IMG/VR virus record: IMGVR_UViG_3300047476_001965
Coordinates: 1 to 30,182 of that record
Source: a virus
Direction: 5' to 3' (one strand)
Length of the DNA: 30,182 nt
Numbering within the stretch: the first letter of the stretch is position 1; each line of letters opens with the position of its first letter. Positions 747-30,182 of this stretch are shown piece by piece. The notes under the pieces are model-generated. The model worked only from the letters and a program-made list of their open reading frames with translations, did not search any database and had not been told where the DNA came from. A program made the position numbers and the translations under genes.

Positions 747-1454
747 TCAGTATCTAGGTTGCTCATTTTTGGGGACATACCCTTCGCGTTCGCCAACGCC
801 GTAGTTTGGCCCGAGTGCGTCTATTTCTTCGATGGTTCGGTGCCGTTTCCATCCAGTACCAATATGCCATTTTTCGCCTTCTACAATTTTAGTTGAGGCG
901 TGGTAGAAAGGTTTTACGCAAGGAAAAATTACTAGTGTTCCTGGTTTTACTTGAAGTAATACGTCTTGCTCTGGGAACCAAAGATCTCCACCGACTCTAT
1001 CGTTATTTAGATAGATGATTCCAGTACAAATAGGATCAACTTGCGGCTGATAATCATCGTCTACGTGAGGGCCCATTTCTTGCCCCGTGTAGTAGTGAAA
1101 TATAGCATAATCAGTCATTAGTTTGCCATCTTGATAGTCCATACCAAGCTGCTCAAAGTAGTACCTACCTGCTTCATCGAAGAGCGCATCAACTTTACTA
1201 AAAAATGCTTTTACTTCTTCATTTTTCGTATTCTCTAGGTGTTCTCTTGAAGATATTCTTTTTGTTCCGTAAACGTGCGGCGTACCATCCGAGGTTTGCC
1301 AAGGTACTAATTTATGGAAGGCCTCCCCCTGACTATCCATCAACATATCATCCATAGTTTTATGCATGTGGATGGCATAGTCTGGATTATCTAGTGCCTC
1401 TTCGAATACAAAAATACGATCAGCATAAATAGTTAATTTACTAAGATCAAGCAT
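747..1454 (-). CDS. 2-oxoglutarate/Fe(II) dioxygenase (prolyl-4-hydroxylase-type), divergent member
   Basis: This 235-residue protein carries the iron-binding H130-V-D132 and distal H185, with K195 ten residues later as the likely 2-oxoglutarate anchor. These enzymes couple decarboxylation of 2-oxoglutarate to hydroxylation of a substrate. The strand motif read as YLNDDYEGGEL in its neighbours is here YLNNDRVGGDLWFP (148-161), and P171-G172-T is the usual turn before the strand leading to the distal His. Together with a long distinct N-terminal part, this makes it the most divergent of the eight cassette members. The C-terminal tail (206-235) is charged and not shared. The ATG at 1454 has a GAGGA site six bases upstream, and a 17-base gap separates it from the upstream gene. 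It is the last oxygenase transcribed before the structural pair at 1-683. Substrate unknown. Confidence 0.88.
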   Translation of the reverse strand: MLDLSKLTIYADRIFVFEEALDNPDYAIHMHKTMDDMLMDSQGEAFHKLVPWQTSDGTPHVYGTKRISSREHLENTKNEEVKAFFSKVDALFDEAGRYYFEQLGMDYQDGKLMTDYAIFHYYTGQEMGPHVDDDYQPQVDPICTGIIYLNNDRVGGDLWFPEQDVLLQVKPGTLVIFPCVKPFYHASTKIVEGEKWHIGTGWKRHRTIEEIDALGPNYGVGEREGYVPKNEQPRY

Positions 1455-1471
1455 AATAATCCTCTATACCC

Positions 1472-2161
1472 TTAAGCGTCTTTATTTCCGGCAGCCCACT
1501 GTTTTTTCTGCTCGTCTTGGCGAGTACGCTCGTATGCAATTTCAGCTTCCATTTGAGCAAGCTCTTCTTCAGTGTAGACAGAATCAATGTAGTCCCAGAA
1601 ACCTACCACTGTAAATCGAGTTCCAGAAACGATTTCATTAATGCGGTGAATATTCTGTACGCCACCAGGGAATGCAATCAAGCTACCCTGAGGAAGCTTC
1701 ACGGTTAAATCGTGGTCGCGAAATTCTAGCTCCCCGCCCTCGTAGTCATCGTTTAGATACAAAACGCTGGCGAATTTGTTGTTACGCCAAGCGGTCGGGT
1801 TGCCATCAATATCGGAACTATCTGAGTGCCAGCGAGCAAACGCCCCTACTGGCCACTTCTGAGCATGGGCGCTGTTAAGTTTTACGCCACGATCGTAGGC
1901 AGCTTCAATTGCAGAGCGAATGTGCTCTGGCAGCCAACGGAAGTAATCTTTATGGATATCCTCTAAGCCTGAACGCTGTAGAGCATCTTCTTCGATCATT
2001 AATGCCATACCAAGTGAATCATAGAAGCAGGTCTGCATCCAGTGTCCAGAGTTAGTCCCCTGGTCTTCAAAGAAATCAATAATCTTTTGACACTCTTCAG
2101 GGCTCAAAAAACCCGGGTATGTTACAACATCATCTTTAATCCATACTGGTTCTGGTAGCAT
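1472..2161 (-). CDS. 2-oxoglutarate/Fe(II) dioxygenase, copy B of a duplicated block
   Basis: A 229-residue prolyl-4-hydroxylase-type oxygenase. The metal ligands are H112-S-D114 and H172, and R182 fits the 2-oxoglutarate salt bridge. YLNDDYEGGEL occupies 135-145. The N-terminus (YPGFLSPEECQKIIDFFE) resembles the helix that starts many 2OG-FeII oxygenase domains. It is the paralogue of the gene at 3027-3752: both have SAHAQKW or SHAQKW before the HxD, FPGG followed by N-IH around the distal His, TRFT, and a charged helical tail ending W-x-x-GNK-x-A. The ATG at 2161 is preceded by AGGAT at five to six bases. Gaps of 42 and 17 bases flank it in the same-strand array. No substrate can be deduced; proximity to fibre genes suggests a protein or a surface glycan. 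Confidence 0.9.
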   Translation of the reverse strand: MLPEPVWIKDDVVTYPGFLSPEECQKIIDFFEDQGTNSGHWMQTCFYDSLGMALMIEEDALQRSGLEDIHKDYFRWLPEHIRSAIEAAYDRGVKLNSAHAQKWPVGAFARWHSDSSDIDGNPTAWRNNKFASVLYLNDDYEGGELEFRDHDLTVKLPQGSLIAFPGGVQNIHRINEIVSGTRFTVVGFWDYIDSVYTEEELAQMEAEIAYERTRQDEQKKQWAAGNKDA

Positions 2162-2203
2162 TTCTATCCTATTTTTATGCGTTATCTTATAATTATACTG
2201 TGT

Positions 2204-2995
2204 TTAGTAGTCATAGATATCTGTTGATTGGCTCTTTCTGAATGCGCTTTCTCGAGCTTTTTCCATTTCAGCCCATTTTTCGGCACCGTGTTCTGCAAGT
2301 CCAGCTAGCCATTCAGGGGTGCCCTCGAACTCGTGCACCCAAAAAGTTCTAATAAAATACCGATTTCCCGAGTGGATTTGCTTCACTCCGTGATAATACG
2401 GCTCTGTGGATGGGAATACTATTACATCTCCCGCGGCAGGTTTGTAGTCAATTGTGTCGTATCCACCGTTTTTGTTGGCAACCCTAAAAGTAAGTTCGCC
2501 GCCCTCGTAATCATCGTTCAAGTACATCGTGCAGGTCAGGGCGTACTTTAGTCCGGGGGCGTCTGCTTTTTCACGCTGGAAGTCAGTGTGGTAGTGCATA
2601 GAGTAGCGATCATCATCTACTCCGCCTAGTGCTACGTATTTAGCAATAGATGGTTTTTGGTGAGACCAATTAGGCAACTCCAGTGGGTATGTCTTCATAT
2701 AGTCTTCAGTTACCTTATAGAAAAGCTCATCTACATACACTGACAACTCCATGCCCGGTTTTCCAGCTTGTTCTACTTTATAATTTTCTAAGAAAGCTTT
2801 CCATTCTTCAGGAGTTGGCTTAGTTTCAAAACGCACGTAATCAAGCCCTGGAACGCTTACCATATCGCCAAATGTCCACCAAGCCTGCCAGCTTGGTAGC
2901 TCTTTTACATTTTCAATAAAACCATACGGGTCATTAAATATACCCCTATATACAAAAATTCTAGGGTATATTTCTTCATGAAGTAAGTCACTCAT
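2204..2995 (-). CDS. 2-oxoglutarate/Fe(II) dioxygenase, copy A of a duplicated block
   Basis: A 263-residue oxygenase with H136-T-D138 inside MHYHTDFQ, distal H202 inside PYYHGV, and R212 as the likely 2-oxoglutarate ligand. YLNDDYEGGEL spans 158-168. Its paralogue is 3752-4516: both share EIYPRI near the N-terminus, a W-x-AWxTFG segment near residue 40, MHYHTDFQ, TCTMYLNDDYEGGE, a KPxAGD(V/I)(I/L)VFPS turn and YYHGV. The C-terminal 40 residues are rich in Glu, Lys and Ala and are probably helical. The start at 2995 is well fixed by GGAGG five to six bases upstream. With the downstream gene it forms a two-gene block that recurs immediately upstream at 3027-4516, evidence of tandem duplication. 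Confidence 0.9.
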   Translation of the reverse strand: MSDLLHEEIYPRIFVYRGIFNDPYGFIENVKELPSWQAWWTFGDMVSVPGLDYVRFETKPTPEEWKAFLENYKVEQAGKPGMELSVYVDELFYKVTEDYMKTYPLELPNWSHQKPSIAKYVALGGVDDDRYSMHYHTDFQREKADAPGLKYALTCTMYLNDDYEGGELTFRVANKNGGYDTIDYKPAAGDVIVFPSTEPYYHGVKQIHSGNRYFIRTFWVHEFEGTPEWLAGLAEHGAEKWAEMEKARESAFRKSQSTDIYDY

Positions 2996-3026
2996 TTATC
3001 CTCCATGGTTGGAGTCTACTACAATT

Positions 3027-3752
3027 TTAAGCATACTTATTTCCGCGCTCCCACTCGGCCCGCTGCTCGAGCTGAGACTCCCTAACTTCAGCCAATTCAG
3101 CGGCCCATTCTGCTTGTCTCTCTGCTGAATACTCGGCGTCTGCGAAGTCCCAAAAGGATAGCATGGTAAATCTAGTTCCTTCCGATATTTCTTTGACGCC
3201 GTGAATATTCTCTATTCCGCCTGGAAATATGTATATAGAAAAAGCGTTAGGCTTGATCTCTAGATTGTGCTCCGGAAAGTACAGCTCCCCACCTTCATAA
3301 TCACCATTGAGATATAAAACTGCCACGTATTTGTTTATCTCGAAGGCTGTTGGATTGCCGGCTTCATCTGAATTATCAGAGTGCGGATATGCATATCCGC
3401 CTTCTTCCCACTTTTGCGCGTGAGACGTATTTGGTTTTACCCTACGCTCGAATATTATTTCTACTGCAGATTTTGTTCTAGTATTTATTTCATTAAATAC
3501 GTCATGCGTTAGCCCAAATTTTTCTAGTTCAATGGTATCCGGATTTAGCCCCATTCCATAAGATCCATAGAAGGCAATAGGTCCCCACTGCTCTGGACCA
3601 TTTTCAAAGTAGTCAATCAGGTTGCTAGCTATGGAGGGTGCTATAAAGTTAGGAATCTCTATAATTCTATTAGTCTCTACTCCTAGTTTAGAAGTAGTAT
3701 TTTTTTCATCTCTATAAAAGATAAAAGTTTCTTGATTAATAGTTGCGTTCAT
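3027..3752 (-). CDS. 2-oxoglutarate/Fe(II) dioxygenase, paralogue of 1472-2161
   Basis: A 241-residue oxygenase. The frame is open 38 codons further upstream, but the start MNATINQETF at 3752 is preferred: it makes a TAATG overlap with the stop of the preceding gene, and the longer reading would be buried in that gene. Ligands are H124-S-D126 and H184, with R194 for 2-oxoglutarate. The strand motif is YLNGDYEGGELYFPEH (147-162), with Gly replacing the first Asp seen in most neighbours. It shares SHAQKW (110-115), FPGGIENIH (176-184) and the W-x-x-GNKYA tail with the gene at 1472-2161. Expected product: a soluble cytoplasmic hydroxylase of unknown substrate, co-translated with the upstream oxygenase. 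Confidence 0.9.
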   Translation of the reverse strand: MNATINQETFIFYRDEKNTTSKLGVETNRIIEIPNFIAPSIASNLIDYFENGPEQWGPIAFYGSYGMGLNPDTIELEKFGLTHDVFNEINTRTKSAVEIIFERRVKPNTSHAQKWEEGGYAYPHSDNSDEAGNPTAFEINKYVAVLYLNGDYEGGELYFPEHNLEIKPNAFSIYIFPGGIENIHGVKEISEGTRFTMLSFWDFADAEYSAERQAEWAAELAEVRESQLEQRAEWERGNKYA

Positions 3753-4516
3753 TATTCTGCGCTGCCCATTAGGTTGTAGCGTCCGCTTTGACGTTCGGAT
3801 TTTTCTCGCTCTAGCTCCATCTGAGCCCAGGTCTCGGTGCCATATTTTTCTAATCCAGCATGCCAATTAGGTGACCCTGGAAAATAATAATCCCAGAAGG
3901 AGCGGACAAAATATTTTTGACCGTTAGTTGTCAGACCTACACCATGGTAGTACGGTTCGTCCGAAGGAAATACTAGGATATCTCCAGCTTTAGGTTTGTA
4001 GACTATTTCATCTATAGATTTGTCATCTTTTAGAATTTTGAAAGCTATTTCTCCACCCTCATAGTCATCGTTGAGATACATGGTACAAGTGATGTATGGT
4101 TTGAATCCAGGCTCTTCACGCTTTTCTTGCTGAAAATCAGTGTGGTAGTGCATGGCTACATCCTCTGAGGCGCCTCCGTTTGTCTCGTACATACATACAG
4201 CTGGAGAGTTAAAGTTCCAAGATACTTGGTCAATTTCATTGCTTTTAACATAGTGTTTAGTAGCTTTGTAGAAAGCATCCAAAATTTGGTCTGCTGCTGA
4301 ATTTGGAATCTCTACTGATTCTTGAATATTCTTCCAATCAGCCGTAGATGGAAACGACTCAAAGGACCTACGGTCTATCTGAATTACAGCAGTTTCGCCA
4401 AAAGTGTACCAAGCTGACCATTGATACACGCTTTTCAGTGTATCGACAATATTATTGGTATCATTTAGTAATCCGCTATAGATAGATATACGCGGGTATA
4501 TTTCTTTAATCTGCAT
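3752..4516 (-). CDS. 2-oxoglutarate/Fe(II) dioxygenase, paralogue of 2204-2995
   Basis: A 254-residue oxygenase, numbered from the ATG at 4516 (MQIKEIYPRI). An in-frame TTG at 4528 would add four residues. Neither start has a strong ribosome site, and the ATG fits the paralogue better. Ligands are H125-T-D127 (MHYHTDFQ) and H191 (PYYHGV), with K201 for 2-oxoglutarate. YLNDDYEGGE lies at 147-156. It aligns along its whole length with the gene at 2204-2995. The coding region overlaps the end of the upstream oxygenase by 11 bases and ends in TAATG with the next, so three oxygenase genes are translationally linked here. Function is inferred from family; the substrate is not known. Confidence 0.88.
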   Translation of the reverse strand: MQIKEIYPRISIYSGLLNDTNNIVDTLKSVYQWSAWYTFGETAVIQIDRRSFESFPSTADWKNIQESVEIPNSAADQILDAFYKATKHYVKSNEIDQVSWNFNSPAVCMYETNGGASEDVAMHYHTDFQQEKREEPGFKPYITCTMYLNDDYEGGEIAFKILKDDKSIDEIVYKPKAGDILVFPSDEPYYHGVGLTTNGQKYFVRSFWDYYFPGSPNWHAGLEKYGTETWAQMELEREKSERQSGRYNLMGSAE

Positions 4517-5186
4517 GATGTTTAACAATTGTCCAGAAAAAGGGGCACGTATATCTAGTTCCAGACTTAATCTCAGTTACACCGTGAATGTAGTTCATGT
4601 CCCCCGGAAAGAAATAGGCTGCACCGCGCTTAGGTTTGAACTGAATGCCTTGGTTAGGGAAGTAAAGTTCTCCACCCTCATAGTCATCATTAATGTAAAA
4701 AAGACCAGCTAGGTCGTAGTAGGGGAAATCGTTTGGCTTGCCCCTGTCAGCCCCAATGTGAAGCTCTTTATCTGCGTGCGGCTCTTGTCGCATACCTGGA
4801 AGCCATCGAACTAGAGCTGGACTAGTTGGCATAGCGTCTACGTTGAAAAATTTATCAACCTCTACCTTAAGGCGCTCAACCATTCCCTCGATTATTCGCG
4901 GAATCTCCGGGTTTACACGATCGATAGTTGTATAAGTCGCAACTCGGTCCTTCCAATAGTCCGAGTCGTAGATTACCGTGCCTTCTTCGTTGTAGTGGGT
5001 TTCGGTCACATCCCACTGATCGTTACTACGAATAAAAGCGTCTAAGGCAGTGATTTCTTCCTCGGTCATGAAGTTCTCTAAAGAAACGATGTTGTCCGAA
5101 GAATCTCCATAGAAACCAGATGGCGTAATAGATACCCGCGGTGCTCCGCGGTGACTGTTTGCTAGATCTTGCTCTTGTGGTTCCAT
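4506..5186 (-). CDS. 2-oxoglutarate/Fe(II) dioxygenase
   Basis: A 226-residue oxygenase. Two in-frame ATGs sit at 5192 and 5186. AGGA lies one base before the first but seven bases before the second, so 5186 (MEPQEQDLAN) is preferred. Ligands are H137-A-D139 and H201, with R211 for 2-oxoglutarate. The strand motif is YINDDYEGGELYFPNQ (164-179), and RYTCPFFWTIVK closes the domain. A 16-residue insertion between HxD and the strand motif (ELHIGADRGKPNDFPY region) distinguishes it from its neighbours; it has no close partner in the cassette. The gene follows the non-oxygenase pair at 5201-6656 after a short gap and overlaps the next oxygenase by 11 bases. Confidence 0.9.
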   Translation of the reverse strand: MEPQEQDLANSHRGAPRVSITPSGFYGDSSDNIVSLENFMTEEEITALDAFIRSNDQWDVTETHYNEEGTVIYDSDYWKDRVATYTTIDRVNPEIPRIIEGMVERLKVEVDKFFNVDAMPTSPALVRWLPGMRQEPHADKELHIGADRGKPNDFPYYDLAGLFYINDDYEGGELYFPNQGIQFKPKRGAAYFFPGDMNYIHGVTEIKSGTRYTCPFFWTIVKHHAD

Positions 5187-5200
5187 ATTCATATCCTATA

Positions 5201-5935
5201 TCACTCGTAGACTCGTCTAGTCCAGACTTCTTTTTGATACACTCCACCATTAGGTACTCGGTATTTTTGACTATTTTCCATATTATTTTTTACCATGTCA
5301 TTATAGCCAACGGAGATGTCTATCTCGGCTTTCCAATCTTCGCGTTTAAAGGGAAGAATTTGAGCATAAGGAGTTCCTGCGGGTATGATACCTGTAAATC
5401 CTTTAGCAATAAAAAATGGCATTGTCCCTGGTAAGTGGACTTTGTCATTGTCGATAATGCCACTTGTAGTTAAAAATGGTAGCTCAAAGCGGTTAAAAGG
5501 CTGAGAATACAGTGCACTGTAGCCCTCTGGAAGAACTACTGCCCAGTCGGCCCACCAAGCAAAGTGTTTTTCGTGATACCCCTGAGGTGCAGTGAATTGG
5601 GGCATTGGCATACGGTCTCCAACAAAATCCTTGTTGTACTCGTCTAACACTTTAATATTAATTTCACCATTGCTCTCGTATACCTCTACATCGCACGGTG
5701 TTTTGTATACATAACCGGTGCCCATGATATCGAACACTGCAGGGCATGCTTTCCAGGTTGGAACTTTACCTCCGTCCTGGGGATTAATCCAAGGCTCGGC
5801 TGTGTGGGGATTAATAGCAAATCTATCAGCTTTTCTATACCAATCGGGGATAGTTTTAATAGTTGCAGCGGGCGCGGACGGGCTCTCTTTTGTTAGCCAT
5901 GGTCGATTTCGTACAAACTTAATTATCTGAGACAC
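5201..5935 (-). CDS. Uncharacterised phage protein embedded in the hydroxylase cassette
   Basis: A 244-residue soluble protein with no signal peptide or membrane segment. Landmarks are IPDWYRKA (29-36), W61-KACPAVFDIMGTGY (61-75), PCDVEV (80-85) and a C-terminal half containing SQPFNRFELPF (144-154) and IIPAGTPYAQILPFKR (183-198). The last two match, in the same order and spacing, the C-terminal half of the next gene upstream (IQPFTTIMS and ITIPAGTPIFTILPIS), so the two probably share a beta-rich, cupin-like fold. I do not see an HxD...H iron site. Similar proteins occur in environmental phages without known function. The start is GTG at 5935, with AGGAGA nine bases upstream inside the preceding gene, which it overlaps by 17 bases. 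It lies between oxygenase genes, so a role in the same modification pathway is likely but unproven. Confidence 0.7.
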   Translation of the reverse strand: MSQIIKFVRNRPWLTKESPSAPAATIKTIPDWYRKADRFAINPHTAEPWINPQDGGKVPTWKACPAVFDIMGTGYVYKTPCDVEVYESNGEINIKVLDEYNKDFVGDRMPMPQFTAPQGYHEKHFAWWADWAVVLPEGYSALYSQPFNRFELPFLTTSGIIDNDKVHLPGTMPFFIAKGFTGIIPAGTPYAQILPFKREDWKAEIDISVGYNDMVKNNMENSQKYRVPNGGVYQKEVWTRRVYE

Positions 5936-6656
5936 TATATGATTCTCCTGTAACTGGGCAGCTCACCGTGCGTAGCTTAATATTTTTTGACTCGTGAGAC
6001 CCCATTGAGCTGCCGTCGTAGTTAATAGCATCTCGATACATTTTTGACCAATCTCCGACAGAGTTTTTTATTTCTGATGCGTCTCCGTACTTCTTTAGTT
6101 CTTCGTAATACTCACGAGGCATATCTCCCTCAATAATATTCATTTCGTAGTCATCTTGTAGGCCTTTAATTGAAATTGGAAGAATAGTGAAAATAGGGGT
6201 TCCGGCTGGAATAGTTATTTCTTTATTTGGCTCTGTAATTTTTAGAGCTAGCGGGAACTCTCCCTTGTAAAAAGAAGTGCTCATTATTGTAGTAAATGGC
6301 TGAATCCCGCGGATAAATAGGTTTGGCGTTGGCATAGTCAACATAGAGGTATCCTCGTCTGTCTTAATAATTAAGCCACCATAGAAACTAACGGTTCCGT
6401 GACCTCTGCCAGTGAATACATATTCTTCACCTTCTAGAATGGTTACGTGGAAATCTCTAGAATCTTCGATTCCATCCCAAATAAATTTAATATCTTTTGG
6501 AAAAGAAATTCCCCAGCCTAGCCGGTTTGTTAAAGAGACCGGGAAGCACATGTAGGCGTGCCTATCGAAGGTATTATCCATCCAATCACGGGTCCCCCTT
6601 AACTGCTCTACGTGAGCAGACATGGGGCGTAGTCTACGAAGTTCTATTTTCTTCAT
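5919..6656 (-). CDS. DUF6065-like protein embedded in the hydroxylase cassette
   Basis: A 245-residue protein. Residues 23-50 (RDWMDNTFDRHAY, C37-FPVSLTNRLGW) resemble the N-terminal signature I remember for DUF6065, a family of unknown function; I could not check this by search. A beta-rich middle (GRGHGTVSFYGGLI, 83-96) leads to MPTPNLFIRGIQPFTTIMS (108-126) and PAGTPIFTILPIS (150-162), shared with the gene downstream. The start at 6656 forms TAATG with the stop of the upstream oxygenase, and AGGA lies seven bases before it. DUF6065-like genes may sit near 2OG oxygenase genes elsewhere, which would suggest a partner or substrate-binding role; that is from memory and uncertain. No catalytic residues can be assigned. 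Confidence 0.65.
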   Translation of the reverse strand: MKKIELRRLRPMSAHVEQLRGTRDWMDNTFDRHAYMCFPVSLTNRLGWGISFPKDIKFIWDGIEDSRDFHVTILEGEEYVFTGRGHGTVSFYGGLIIKTDEDTSMLTMPTPNLFIRGIQPFTTIMSTSFYKGEFPLALKITEPNKEITIPAGTPIFTILPISIKGLQDDYEMNIIEGDMPREYYEELKKYGDASEIKNSVGDWSKMYRDAINYDGSSMGSHESKNIKLRTVSCPVTGESYSVSDN

Positions 6657-7405
6657 TAGCTTCCTGTTTCTTCATAGAATTTTTGTTTGTGAAATTTGTC
6701 ACTATAGTCAAGCATGGTAACCATAGAATATTTAGTTCCAGACTTTACCGGCATGGCTCGGTGAGGGTACATAAAATTTGAAGGAAATAGGTACACATCG
6801 CCAGCTTTAGGTTTGATTGTTACATCATGCAGCCTAAAATAAAGCTCTCCACCCTCGTAGTCATCATTCGGGAATGCAACTATAGATACTACACAGTTAT
6901 ATGAATATCCGTGATCGTGGTGTTCTTGAAAGTGCTGTCCGGGGCCGTACTTAATGTAATTAGTTGCTTCCCAGTAGCGCAGCTCGCCGATATTGTAGTG
7001 GCGGGTATAGTGTTTGACCGCTTGAAGTTGACGATAGTGGGTCTCGTCTGCTAATTTATGTAGAGTTAATCCCGGCGCAGAGGTGTCTTCGGCAATATCA
7101 CTTTTTTTATATTTAAAGTCAAAACAGTCTCGGTAGTCTGGCATCTTAACTCCGTAGCCAACCATTGCTTCTTCATACTTGTAGTTATTGTCAGAATCAT
7201 TTAAAACTGACTCTAATCTACTAATAATGTTCATGCTTTCTGGTAAAACATCGTGGTAGACCCAGATGCCCGTGCCAGGCGCTACTTCTTCCGCTGAGCT
7301 CCAGGTCTGCTCTTCTATCTCGTACCATGCCTGAAGACGGACGTTGTGATCATCCATCTCTTTTTGCATTTTTTCATCAGGTCCACTGACGTGTTCAGTA
7401 TTCAT
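6656..7405 (-). CDS. 2-oxoglutarate/Fe(II) dioxygenase, paralogue of 7417-8169
   Basis: A 249-residue oxygenase. An ATG at 7417 would form TGATG with the upstream stop, but the next in-frame ATG at 7405 (MNTEHVSGPD) has a textbook GGAGG eight bases before it, so 7405 is preferred. Ligands are H162-H-D164, in FQEHHDHGYSY, and H215, with K225 for 2-oxoglutarate. The strand motif is FPNDDYEGGELYF (178-190). It shares with the upstream gene a Y-GPG-xHF-x-x-HxDHG signature, a KPKAGD turn and a (Y/F)xFPS(N/T)F...H pattern around the distal His. The N-terminal half (about 140 residues) is longer than in the other cassette members apart from that partner. Confidence 0.9.
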   Translation of the reverse strand: MNTEHVSGPDEKMQKEMDDHNVRLQAWYEIEEQTWSSAEEVAPGTGIWVYHDVLPESMNIISRLESVLNDSDNNYKYEEAMVGYGVKMPDYRDCFDFKYKKSDIAEDTSAPGLTLHKLADETHYRQLQAVKHYTRHYNIGELRYWEATNYIKYGPGQHFQEHHDHGYSYNCVVSIVAFPNDDYEGGELYFRLHDVTIKPKAGDVYLFPSNFMYPHRAMPVKSGTKYSMVTMLDYSDKFHKQKFYEETGS

Positions 7406-7416
7406 GTATTCCTCCA

Positions 7417-8169
7417 TCAGTACTTCAACTCGTAAGCCTCAATTGTAGGCGAGACTCGGTGATTTACCCCGTCTCTGTCATTATAGTCGGTCATAACTAC
7501 AACAGCATACTTTATACCAGAAACCATATCCTGGGAAGCGTGTTCATAAATAAAAGTAGACGGGAATACTACAATATCTCCAGCTTTTGGTTTAATGGTT
7601 AGTTTATCAAATCTAGGAAAGTGAATTTCCCCGCCCTCGTAGTCATCGTTTAAGTAGACAACGACAGAGATAGTGCAGACATAAGTGGGGCCGTGATCAG
7701 CATGTACCTTAAAGTGCGTACCCGGTCCATCGTATTTTACAAAATTAAATGATTCGTAAGATGCAATCCCTACTCCCCAGGAGCGACCATAGTCGTCAAC
7801 GCACTGGCGAATTGCTTGAAAAATACGCTCGTGCATTTCGTAGAGCTCGGCATTCTCTGAGCTTTTTGGTCCTAGGTTAGTAGAGCTAATTTTAAAATCT
7901 AGTGCGTTTCTTGCATATAATGCCACTTCTGCTGAAGAGGTGACTCTTGCCCCCTGCCACTCGTATCGAGTTTGCCCGTTTAGGTTTGCCTCCAGAGTGT
8001 CGATATATTTTTTTCCTTGATCGGATGAGATAGCTCCACTATATACATTTATACCGAGGGCTGGATTAGATACTTTAATGTGGCCAATGGCCCTATCTGC
8101 CATACGGTTACTGGCTGTTTCTGAGCGATCTTTAGTAAACCAATCATTTTGCCCGTGTGGCTGATCCAT
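7417..8169 (-). CDS. 2-oxoglutarate/Fe(II) dioxygenase, first gene of the cassette
   Basis: A 250-residue oxygenase with H156-A-D158 in GTHFKVHADHG, distal H210 in FIYEHAS and K220 as the likely 2-oxoglutarate ligand. YLNDDYEGGEIHFP lies at 172-185. The start at 8169 is supported by AGGGAG about five bases upstream. It is the promoter-proximal gene of the ten-gene array and follows a strong terminator, so the cassette is probably its own transcription unit. It is closely related to the next gene downstream; the pair forms a second subfamily, distinct from the duplicated block at 1472-4516. Substrate unknown; the product is expected to be cytoplasmic. Confidence 0.9.
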   Translation of the reverse strand: MDQPHGQNDWFTKDRSETASNRMADRAIGHIKVSNPALGINVYSGAISSDQGKKYIDTLEANLNGQTRYEWQGARVTSSAEVALYARNALDFKISSTNLGPKSSENAELYEMHERIFQAIRQCVDDYGRSWGVGIASYESFNFVKYDGPGTHFKVHADHGPTYVCTISVVVYLNDDYEGGEIHFPRFDKLTIKPKAGDIVVFPSTFIYEHASQDMVSGIKYAVVVMTDYNDRDGVNHRVSPTIEAYELKY

Positions 8170-8231: not shown

Positions 8232-8262
8232 AAAAAATAAGGCCCCCGAAGGGGCCCTATTT
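8232..8262 (-). terminator. Rho-independent terminator after the Hint-domain gene
   Basis: On the minus strand a perfect six-pair GGCCCC/GGGGCC stem closes a TTCG tetraloop (stem 8241-8246 with 8251-8256) and runs into TTATTTTTT. It lies just past the stop codon at 8271 and separates the tail operon from the hydroxylase cassette. Confidence 0.9.
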
Positions 8263-8270
8263 TAGCTGAT

Positions 8271-9563
8271 TTAGTTCTGGTGAACTAGATAACCACCGGC
8301 AATGAACCAGTTGTACGGCTCACAGATGTACTGGTAAACGATGGTTGGTTCGTCTAGGTTAGTGATCTCGGTGATCTCTTCTTCGACGTATGAGCCATCC
8401 TTTAGTACCTTAACCAGGATGTCGCCTACCTTTAGTAGACCAGCATTTATGGTCTGGAACTGGCCATCTACCTTAGCGAACATTGCCTGCTCGTTTGAGT
8501 ACTTAGCCTGGTCGTTGCCATTGAAGTAAACAATCTCTGATTTCTCGGTTTCGATAATCTCGGTGATTGTTGTCTCCACTAGTTTTTCGCCAACGAATGA
8601 GAGTGTAGGAGCAATAACGAAGTTTTCTTCTTCGCGTGGCTCTGTCGACAGCTCATTTAGTTCTACGGATACTAGGGTATCTCCAACCTTTAGGTCCTTA
8701 GCTGCAACCAAACCGGTAGGTGTCTCGATCAATGTGCTTTCCTCGATGCAGAAGCGTGGAGGGAAGAACGGGAAGAACGGGAAGAAAGGCGGGAAGAACG
8801 GGAAGAAAGGCGGGAAGAACGGGAAAAATGGTGGGAAGTACGGTGGGAAGTACGGTGGGAAGTATGGGAAAAACGGTGGGAAGTACGGTGGGAAGTACGG
8901 TGGGAAGTATGGCGGTGTGGTTACGCTACCAGAATAGTCTGACCATGCCGAGCTTCCATTTGCATTTTTTACGTAAAAACGATACTGCTGAGAAGTACTA
9001 GCCTCTTGTGATATAGAAAATTCTGACGTATCTGTACGATCTCCAGCTTTACCGTCCGTGCTTTCCCAGCGGTAGGCATTTGTTGATAGTAGTGCAGAAC
9101 CGCCTGTAGCAGATGGTGCTGAAAGAGTCAGGTAATCATTTTGATCATTCGATACGCTTCTAACTGTCGGTGCGCTAGGAGTAGCCGGGACAGTTGTAAT
9201 ACTTACTGAGCTAGAAGTTGTACCTGCAGCCGATCCTGCAGCATTCTTTGCATATACGGTAAAAGTGTACGCTGTTCCCGATGCAAGCCCTTCAAATACA
9301 AATGGTGATCCAGAAGTTGGAAGTTCAGTTGTATTTTTGGTTACAGTGGTAGGAGTACTTTCAATATCATAACTAGTCGCTGGAGCTGATGCAGACGGGA
9401 GTGTCCAAACTAGGTTTACTGCACCACCTGTCCCGTCTGTTCCAGTACCACTCAGGAGGTATGGTCGGTTAGTACCGACGTTAGTAGCTGAGGTTATAGT
9501 TACAGACTGAGGCTGCAAAAAGTCATTCTGCTGGGCAGAACGTTTACCGGTTCTTTTACTCAT
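8271..9563 (-). CDS. Fibronectin III - Pro/Phe/Tyr repeat - Hint (intein-like) domain protein
   Basis: A 430-residue mosaic protein. Residues about 31-123 and 127-216 are two fibronectin type III-like domains (VxVYAKNAAG and YRFYVKNANG strands). Residues 217-269 are a low-complexity run of PPYFP, PPFFP and FFP units. C272 begins a Hint domain: CIEESTLIETPTG, KDLKVGDTL (290-298), a second LLKVGDIL (376-383) and a C-terminal YNWFIAGGYLVHQN ending in N430. Hint domains splice or self-cleave at their first Cys. The usual block-B TxxH appears as SNEQ (356-359), so the His is replaced by Gln, and no C-extein follows. It is therefore probably a cleavage-type or degenerate domain, not a splicing intein. 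It is the last gene of the tail operon and likely a virion protein. Ribosome site weak (AGGA about 14 bases upstream). Confidence 0.85.
   Translation of the reverse strand: MSKRTGKRSAQQNDFLQPQSVTITSATNVGTNRPYLLSGTGTDGTGGAVNLVWTLPSASAPATSYDIESTPTTVTKNTTELPTSGSPFVFEGLASGTAYTFTVYAKNAAGSAAGTTSSSVSITTVPATPSAPTVRSVSNDQNDYLTLSAPSATGGSALLSTNAYRWESTDGKAGDRTDTSEFSISQEASTSQQYRFYVKNANGSSAWSDYSGSVTTPPYFPPYFPPYFPPFFPYFPPYFPPYFPPFFPFFPPFFPFFPPFFPFFPFFPPRFCIEESTLIETPTGLVAAKDLKVGDTLVSVELNELSTEPREEENFVIAPTLSFVGEKLVETTITEIIETEKSEIVYFNGNDQAKYSNEQAMFAKVDGQFQTINAGLLKVGDILVKVLKDGSYVEEEITEITNLDEPTIVYQYICEPYNWFIAGGYLVHQN
8757..8915 (-). repeat. Tandem repeat encoding PPYFP/PPFFP units
   Basis: About 159 bases of imperfect tandem repeat inside the Hint-domain gene, made on the plus strand of units such as GGGAAGTACGGT and GGGAAGAACGGGAAGAA. 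It encodes residues 217-269. Length variation by slippage or recombination is to be expected. Confidence 0.9.
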
Positions 9564-28703: not shown

Positions 28704-28940
28704 ATGTTTGATGACTGGCTAAAGCAGGGGTATGATAATGGCTGGATTGGTCCAGCAGTGTGTTACACGCATGACGGGCTTCCACTATCAGAGGAAGAGG
28801 ATATTGAATTTCAGGAGTCTGATCCTTGTATTCACATTCTTCGTCTATATGAAGATCCAACTGTAAAACTAGCAGTTGAAGCTAACCACTCGCCTAGTGT
28901 ATGGAGAGCTACTAACTCCGGGCTTGATAAAGATAATTAA
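28704..28940 (+). CDS. Small hypothetical acidic protein
   Basis: A 78-residue acidic protein beginning MFDDWLKQGYDNGWIGPAVC and containing HDGLPLSEEEDIEF (23-36). It resembles small phage proteins of no known function that carry a W-IGP-xxCxxHDG pattern. It starts three bases after the SGNH-like gene and is likely co-transcribed with it. Its stop codon shares TTAA (28937-28940) with the stop of the convergent oxygenase gene, so the two genes meet with no spacer. Confidence 0.7.
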   Translation: MFDDWLKQGYDNGWIGPAVCYTHDGLPLSEEEDIEFQESDPCIHILRLYEDPTVKLAVEANHSPSVWRATNSGLDKDN

Positions 28941-29611
28941 GAATTTCGGCTGTAATTTACTTCTACGCCCAAATCTTCGTAGTGTTTCTTGATGATCTCG
29001 TTACTCTGATCAAAACGCCCCTGATCATCTTGCTTGTGTTGAAAACCTATAGCCGCTCGCGGACCTGGTGTGACTACAGAGTGTCCTACTAGAAAACCAA
29101 CAAATATAACGTCGCCAGGCTCCAGCTCCAGTTCCATCTCTGGTTTAATTCCATAGGCTTTTTGAGCATTAATGTTTTCTTCTTTATATATTTTCCATAT
29201 AGCCTTACCCTGACATTGCCAGTACACTGTTTCGCGCATGTCGCAGTGGGGATCTATTGGCTTTTCCCCCCCTAGAAAATTAACAAATGCACTTACTGGC
29301 CAAATGTCAGTCTCTAGCACTTCATTAAATACATCTCTAACTAGTCGGCTTTGAGGGAACATCTTGTCGTTAGGGTTTGAAACCATCATATAGAAGAGAT
29401 TTCTAAGCAGTACGCCATTGATAAAGCGCTCTTCGAATGGCTGCGCTGGAATGTTACCTGGAGGGGTTGAAATCTCTAGCTGAGCGTGGTTGATAAAGTC
29501 TTCCCAGGTAGGTACCTCTGGAAATAGGTTCTTAAAAACTACAGCAAGTTCACCATTACGAACGCGCTCTATTCCGGCGCGAACCTCTTCTAATCTGTCA
29601 AATTCAATCAT
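28937..29611 (-). CDS. JmjC/cupin-type 2-oxoglutarate/Fe(II) oxygenase-like protein
   Basis: A 224-residue protein whose core reads PIDPHCDMRETVYWQCQGKA (118-137), WKIY, then LELEPGDVIFVGFLVGHSVV (161-180). H122-C-D124 and H177 form the facial triad, and K140 or R185 could bind 2-oxoglutarate. The layout is that of JmjC/cupin hydroxylases, different from the eight prolyl-hydroxylase-type enzymes at 747-8169. It stands apart from them, convergent to the small gene at 28704. A TAGAAT box lies exactly six bases before the ATG, suggesting leaderless expression. Substrate unknown; JmjC relatives hydroxylate proteins or ribosomal components. Confidence 0.8.
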   Translation of the reverse strand: MIEFDRLEEVRAGIERVRNGELAVVFKNLFPEVPTWEDFINHAQLEISTPPGNIPAQPFEERFINGVLLRNLFYMMVSNPNDKMFPQSRLVRDVFNEVLETDIWPVSAFVNFLGGEKPIDPHCDMRETVYWQCQGKAIWKIYKEENINAQKAYGIKPEMELELEPGDVIFVGFLVGHSVVTPGPRAAIGFQHKQDDQGRFDQSNEIIKKHYEDLGVEVNYSRNS

Positions 29612-29684: not shown

Positions 29685-30000
29685 GGGGATGACAGGTTTC
29701 GACGGTCATTCGACAAACTAGTGAAGCAAGCAGAGACTGCCACGCACTCTTAAGTGTGGCAAAACCATAAATGCAAACTCACGTTCAGCATTCGCACTAG
29801 CTGCTTAATAGCCGCTTATGCCCCTGACAAAGCAGTAGTTCTAGCTGGGCAGTCAGGTTTTAAATAAATAGAACACCACCAAGGGTTGCAGCAGGAGACC
29901 TCAAGATCCCGCCTTCGTAGTACCGTGGCTGGTAGAGCCTAAGCTTGTAGAAGAATAGTTTGTTTTTGATCGGACCGGGGTTCAATTCCCCGCATCTCCA
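29685..30000 (+). ncRNA. ssrA: tmRNA (transfer-messenger RNA), tag ANSRSAFALAA
   Basis: The 5' end GGGGATGACAGGTTTCGACGG is the tmRNA start consensus and pairs with the 3' CATCTCC (29993-29999) to make the acceptor stem, with one G-U pair. The T-arm is CGGGG-TTCAATT-CCCCG near 29976-29992. The open reading frame resumes at GCA 29773 and reads ANSRSAFALAA, then TAA-TAG; the ALAA end is the usual proteolysis signal. The discriminator base is A30000 and is followed by CGA, so CCA is not encoded and must be added. Total length is 316 bases, normal for tmRNA. It rescues stalled ribosomes with SmpB, which is not in this window and is presumably the host's. Phage tmRNAs are known from some mycobacteriophages. 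Confidence 0.95.
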
Positions 30001-30182
30001 CGATTCCATACTCTGAAACGCGGATTACGCCGCGGTAGGTAAATGGCCCAAGGTATGGTAGGGCAAGTGTTAGGTACCCTGTTCCGGACGGTTGAAGGAC
30101 CCTAGTGCTATGGACTAGCCTCTACGGAGGACCAGGTCCCAGGGCTGACCGCGTCTCGGCAATGGGTAGTGGGTGCAAATCC
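30001..30182 (+). ncRNA. Unidentified structured RNA-like sequence, runs off window edge
   Basis: These 182 bases hold no convincing open frame but many strong local helices: CGCGG/CCGCG (30019-30023 with 30030-30034), CCATAC/GTATGG (30006-30011 with 30053-30058), GCCC/GGGC (30046-30049 with 30061-30064, which would make a pseudoknot with the previous helix), CTAGT/ACTAG with a seven-base loop (30102-30118), CCTC-TACG-GAGG (30119-30130) and a T-arm-like GTGGG-TGCAAAT-CC at the edge. No complete tRNA can be drawn: the seven-base loop lacks U33. It may be the beginning of a large structured RNA or a decayed tRNA cluster. Confidence 0.5.

Follow-up and report, generated by a model that had tools for sequence, protein, structure and literature searches.

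A conserved bank of 2-oxoglutarate-Fe(II) oxygenases adjoins a PPxF-repeat fibre gene in uncultured tailed phages and may hydroxylate its product

Virus-encoded peptidyl hydroxylases are already known, as are phages with several 2-oxoglutarate (2OG)-Fe(II) oxygenases per genome (PMC3037559). Viral prolyl hydroxylases have been reported in aquatic viromes, and their use by the virus "remains cryptic" (PMC9301287). Phage 2OG oxygenases, including members of PHROG 61, structurally resemble the human prolyl hydroxylase EGLN3 (PMC12774648). Here we describe a gene cassette in a 30,182-base virus fragment from IMG/VR (IMGVR_UViG_3300047476_001965; this whole stretch is called the window below). The cassette holds eight oxygenase genes (O1 to O8, Table 1) and lies downstream of a gene for a fibre protein with a repetitive PP-x-F (PPxF) tract. 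New compared with the described systems are the compact, clustered bank with a conserved core, its two dUTPase-fold partners (DUF6065 and a phrog_7084 family protein) and its linkage to a repetitive candidate substrate. With moderate confidence, we regard the cassette as a dedicated peptide-hydroxylation unit that modifies the phage's own PPxF-tailed fibre.

The prolyl 4-hydroxylase of Paramecium bursaria chlorella virus 1 (PBCV-1) is likewise a small virus-encoded 2OG prolyl hydroxylase, acting on proline-containing peptides (PMC7019647). It is a single gene of a eukaryotic virus, whereas the cassette is a bank of genes in a phage. To our knowledge, it has no dUTPase-fold partners. The O6 profile matched chain 5c5t (E 0.013), which is named prolyl 4-hydroxylase and which we take to be the PBCV-1 enzyme. 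A viral procollagen lysyl hydroxylase and glycosyltransferase (PDB 6ax6), presumably mimivirus L230, is also a 2OG peptidyl hydroxylase and was weakly matched by the O7 profile (E 0.022). Mimivirus L230 acts on viral collagen. The 6ax6 protein is one enzyme working on collagen lysines, whereas the cassette is an enzyme bank with a PPxF tract as candidate substrate. The nearest solved relative of O8 by profile is a bacterial prolyl 4-hydroxylase (PDB 3itq and 5hv0, E 4e-6), which we assume to be the Bacillus anthracis enzyme. In contrast to the bank, it is a single cellular enzyme, and the O8 alignment spans the catalytic core only. The 2OG-Fe(II) oxygenases of marine cyanophages (PHROG 61) belong to the same broad family and occur several to a genome, with roles that are proposed only (PMC3037559). 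They are scattered, however, with no DUF6065 match in the phage collection and no PPxF tract in the genomes checked.

The window derives from a tailed phage and carries fibre genes, a ribonucleotide reductase, a WhiB-like regulator and a transfer-messenger RNA (tmRNA). The WhiB-like regulator suggests an actinobacterial host. Between positions 747 and 8169, ten open reading frames (ORFs) on the minus strand are tiled with overlaps or short gaps, eight of them oxygenases and two dUTPase-fold genes. The original prediction, made from the letters of the window, described eight complete oxygenases with intact catalytic residues on one strand within 7.4 kb. This description was confirmed: 8/10 cassette genes exceeded the Pfam gathering score of PF13640 (2OG-FeII_Oxy_3), and HxD, the distal His and R/K were present in the alignment of each of the eight. 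All four catalytic residues were kept in 486 of 488 alignable relatives. By family and catalytic residues the eight genes are thus 2OG-Fe(II) oxygenases, for which an Fe(II)- and 2OG-dependent oxidation is predicted. The ratio of nonsynonymous to synonymous changes (pN/pS) was 0.08-0.24 against the related locus L001, with synonymous sites near saturation, and indicates purifying selection. PHROG labels such as "DNA endonuclease V" and "ferrochelatase" on the oxygenases were judged to be annotation carry-over, since Pfam and the catalytic residues indicate 2OG enzymes. A role in defence was also discarded; PADLOC matched a generic 2OG model only and no system.

In a tree of 499 oxygenase sequences, O2, O4, O6, O7 and O8 each head a clade of their own that is single-copy or close to it, and a further clade belongs to O1. 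The clades of O1, O2 and O4 are also broad, those of O3 and O5 narrower. Because of these separate clades, the eight enzymes appear to be mostly long-separated lineages rather than fresh duplicates. The paralogues in the window share at most about 43% identity over their full length.

Profiles of the core enzymes were compared with the sequences in the PDB. O8 and O7 matched prolyl 4-hydroxylases (4e-6 and 1e-3), and O6 matched prolyl 3-hydroxylase 1 (1.3e-5) and a bacterial prolyl 4-hydroxylase (1.4e-4). Lysyl hydroxylases and the PKHD-type PiuC were also among the matches of the three profiles, whereas AlkB and TET were not. The sole other matches, designed chlorophyll proteins and AdeR, were judged spurious. 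The core profiles thus resemble peptidyl prolyl and lysyl hydroxylases rather than nucleic-acid oxygenases, a similarity of the catalytic core that does not fix the substrate.

To assess conservation, 80 IMG/VR loci related to O8 were compared. Most of them have the core order O8, O7, DUF6065, phrog_7084, O6 or the variant O8, phrog_7084, O7, DUF6065, O6, and downstream of it lies a series of additional oxygenases that differs between loci. Across 78-80 loci O6, O7 and O8 are orthologous, whereas the accessory oxygenases turn over. Each of 20 contigs searched whole carried 6-11 PF13640 genes. The cassette is therefore a conserved unit and not peculiar to the window contig. A DNA-level search of phage records with the cassette gave no match. 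There was no isolate for comparison, because neither DUF6065 nor the PPxF fibre protein had a match in 50,697 phage records. When bacterial genomes were searched with an alignment of DUF6065, one contig was returned, from a Chitinophagaceae bin, with the cassette in the same order as in the phages.

The protein encoded immediately upstream of O8 is of the FN3 type and bears a PPYFP/PFF tract at 8757-8915. In the relatives, the upstream proteins have a tract of this kind, (PPFFPPYFPFF)n, with about 45% Phe and 39% Pro. It can be generalized as (PP[F/Y/H]F)n, and PPHF and PPWF variants occur. The tract-bearing proteins vary in make-up; they usually have FN3 domains, and some resemble PASTA domains by eye. 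In the window, the C-terminus after the tract starts with Cys and ends with VHQN (PF14890, E 0.0059, under the cut-off). A similar extension of 148-170 residues was found in about 21 of 73 relatives, and nearly all others stop within about 40 residues of the tract. This Hint/intein-like end may cleave or covalently attach the tail. Several loci (L099, L101, L102, L129, L142, L152 and L159) have the tract on quite different proteins, sometimes in mid-protein, and in some contigs an additional PPxF gene lies apart from the oxygenases. In two loci (L001, 4795-5436; L003, 6790-7398) an extra protein with HxD and a distal His, resembling a diverged 2OG enzyme, is encoded between the tail gene and O8.

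Linkage of the cassette to the PPxF gene was examined in both directions. Two tract-detection rules found the tract for 67 and 73 cassettes, respectively, with one locus (L045) missed by the second rule and caught by the first. A proline/aromatic tract lay upstream of O8 in all 74 of the 74 cassettes with enough flank, and the tail gene was immediately adjacent to the cassette in 33/73. A 2OG gene directly followed the PPxF gene even in several loci with other gene orders and a DUF6065 protein only about 30% identical (for example L132, L165, L144, L136, L096, L100). Contigs chosen by the PPxF motif alone contained PF13640 in 37/39 cases, mostly in 5-12 copies, and DUF6065 in 30/39. As a fibre-matched control, 29 contigs of at least 35 kb were chosen by the Mtd_N fibre motif alone. 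All eight control contigs with PPxF had 6-11 oxygenases, whereas 20 of the 21 without it had 0-4, mostly 0-2 (Fisher p 2e-6; the contigs are related fragments, and the control measures linkage rather than independent events). The lone exception, G076, has a variant tail with FFAPPGFF repeats beside its cassette (L310). Among the control contigs, oxygenase number went with the presence of the PPxF tail; whether it follows fibre type had been suggested for checking in related genomes. The earlier baseline of one or two such genes per phage was too low: the complete genomes of Melnitz-3, S-H9-1, S-RIM4 and P-SSM2 have 3, 7, 7 and 9 scattered PF13640 matches. The unusual feature is the clustering of the oxygenases, less so their count per genome, and it is the clustered cassette, not oxygenases as such, that goes with the PPxF tract.

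Both non-oxygenase proteins of the core were modelled with AlphaFold 2 (AF2) from about 60 homologues each (predicted local distance difference test values, pLDDT, in Table 1). For DUF6065 the top 50 Foldseek matches in the PDB were all dUTPases (best E 3.4e-4), and for phrog_7084 the best 50 were dUTPases and a few dCTP deaminases. VIA gave Z up to 10.6 for phrog_7084, with all matches listed being dUTPases, and 10.6 for DUF6065. The two proteins are distantly related to each other (hhalign 96%, E 4e-9). The models assign a dUTPase fold to both, and neither is an oxygenase; the analysis thereby supplies a fold for DUF6065 and phrog_7084. By visual inspection, STSFY stands in DUF6065 at the place where dUTPase motif 3 carries an Asp, and phrog_7084 keeps GIIDND and lacks the motif Tyr.

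The reading best supported by these results is that the phage modifies its own fibre, and the earlier interpretation of the cassette is thus supported in part. The product of the upstream gene would be a part of the virion that bears a long PPxF repeat tract and, in most cases, FN3 domains. A strong hairpin terminator after the fibre gene, with comparable terminators at the same place in at least 12/68 loci (strict scan), would allow bulk production of the fibre alongside lower amounts of the enzymes. The cassette had been thought to look like a regulated unit, with a promoter candidate of its own behind a strong terminator; the terminator was confirmed, whereas the promoter was not supported, as promoter-like sites in the region did not exceed those in shuffles (16 found, 18.1 expected). 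O8, O7 and O6 would hydroxylate residues of the tract, most likely prolines because of the relatives of these enzymes, although Phe or Tyr may be the modified residue. The accessory enzymes O1-O5 would add further site- or context-specific hydroxylations. From their constant linkage, the dUTPase-fold pair would be invariable partners of the enzymes and might serve as a scaffold or binding subunit that binds or presents a ligand or the substrate. The tail, which would act at the cell surface, is by itself very hydrophobic; hydroxylation could stiffen or solubilize it or make it adhesive, and so influence adsorption. More tentatively, and by analogy with plant extensins and mussel adhesives, the peptidyl hydroxylase lineages and their two dUTPase-fold partners might together produce a virion-borne PPxF rod rich in hydroxyproline.

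Several observations weigh against fibre modification. No hydroxyproline was detected in the virions of PBCV-1, although its enzyme works on peptides (PMC7019647). The PPxF tract is absent from complete cyanophage and methylophage genomes with 3-9 PF13640 matches, so phage oxygenases do not need a PPxF substrate. Tail length and oxygenase number are uncorrelated (rho 0.03), and for 12 of 68 tail genes the downstream DNA examined contains no oxygenase; several of these contigs have a cassette elsewhere. The 74 cassettes are related and the contigs are fragments, and co-occurrence is partly a matter of linkage and descent. The dUTPase-fold partners have no known role in peptide hydroxylation. 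Because they are fixed in the core, nucleotide or DNA chemistry stays a rival, in which the oxygenases would hydroxylate pyrimidines and the dUTPase-fold proteins bind the nucleotide. This rival is kept alive by halovirus HCTV-7 and cyanophage S-RIM4 (L082, L081), in which relatives of phrog_7084 are encoded near ribonucleotide reductase genes, and O6 has a weak Tet_JBP match (E 3.7e-4, under the cut-off). The PDB matches of O6-O8 to peptidyl hydroxylases, the dUTPase motif changes read by eye in both partners and the position of the unit in the fibre region, where it tracks the PPxF gene, nevertheless make nucleotide chemistry improbable.

The enzymes could also have another target: a different fibre, a polymer of the host or a protein on its surface. 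In the window, the cassette is flanked by Mtd_N fibres and a collagen-like ORF, and the several oxygenase lineages might each have their own target. However, Mtd_N contigs without PPxF mostly lack oxygenase banks, and another target is rather unlikely. Of the two fibre substrates originally put forward, gene order and co-occurrence favour the PPYFP repeats, whereas collagen was rejected as the main substrate: the ORF at 1-321, which matches PF01391 and is truncated by the window edge, has 0 Pro at the Y position of its triplets, and no more than 15/81 loci showed collagen-like genes. Alternatively, a variable fibre region or shared descent might merely hold the cassette and the PPxF gene together, with no enzyme-substrate relation. 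The turnover of accessory oxygenases, the occurrence of PPxF tracts on different proteins and the relatedness of the cassettes studied would fit such a linkage. We give it little credence, since adjacency holds over at least two gene orders and core proteins only about 30% identical, and the diverged tail of L310 still has a cassette. A metabolic role, by drawdown of 2-oxoglutarate or altered host nitrogen signalling, has been proposed for cyanophages, which also carry multiple oxygenases (PMC3037559). For the present cassette this seems very improbable, as it leaves eight diverged genes with conserved catalytic sites and their linkage to one fibre type unexplained, and the WhiB-like regulator makes a cyanobacterial host doubtful.

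The literature searched, which covered few subscription journals, gave no description of such a compact bank, no report of phage prolyl hydroxylation of tail proteins or of a phage's own fibre and no mention of DUF6065; a published description of the bank may exist. The cassette names a specific, encoded and repetitive candidate substrate beside its enzymes in a widespread group of uncultured phages. Because the candidate substrate adjoins the enzymes, the viral use of such oxygenases becomes a testable question. Many uncultured water phages probably hydroxylate their own fibre.

Table 1. Features of the oxygenase cassette and the adjoining fibre gene in the window
Feature	Coordinates	Strand	Evidence
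O1, accessory 2OG-Fe(II) oxygenase	747..1454	-	PF13640 5.5e-8; tree clade of 55 genes in 51 loci
O2, accessory 2OG-Fe(II) oxygenase	1472..2161	-	PF13640 1.1e-9; single-copy clade, 57 loci
O3, accessory 2OG-Fe(II) oxygenase	2204..2995	-	PF13640 1.5e-12; narrow clade
O4, accessory 2OG-Fe(II) oxygenase	3027..3752	-	PF13640 4.7e-7; single-copy clade, 18 loci
O5, accessory 2OG-Fe(II) oxygenase	3752..4528	-	PF13640 1.7e-9; narrower clade
O6, core 2OG-Fe(II) oxygenase	4506..5192	-	PF13640 1.6e-7; single-copy, 78 loci, support 1.0
phrog_7084 family core protein, predicted dUTPase fold	5201..5935	-	phrog_7084 1.3e-32; AF2 pLDDT 89.6
DUF6065 core protein, predicted dUTPase fold	5919..6656	-	PF19541 2.1e-26; AF2 pLDDT 85
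O7, core 2OG-Fe(II) oxygenase	6656..7417	-	PF13640 1.9e-13; single-copy, 78 loci
O8, core 2OG-Fe(II) oxygenase, first gene of the cassette	7417..8169	-	PF13640 4.9e-12; clade in 80 loci
Intrinsic terminator between PPxF fibre gene and cassette	8232..8263	-	hairpin -22.9 kcal/mol, z -3.67
FN3-like fibre protein with (PPYFP/PFF)n tract, candidate substrate	8271..9563	-	fn3 4.6e-8; Hint/intein-like C-terminus

The ORF listed for O4 spans 3027-3866, and its likeliest start is an internal ATG close to 3752, right behind the O5 gene. A further oxygenase gene of the JmjC type, at 28937-29611 and 20 kb from the cassette, had already been recognized and was verified with PF08007 (29.7 bits, cut-off 22). 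A complete tmRNA gene with the tag ANSRSAFALAA is located at 29685-30003.

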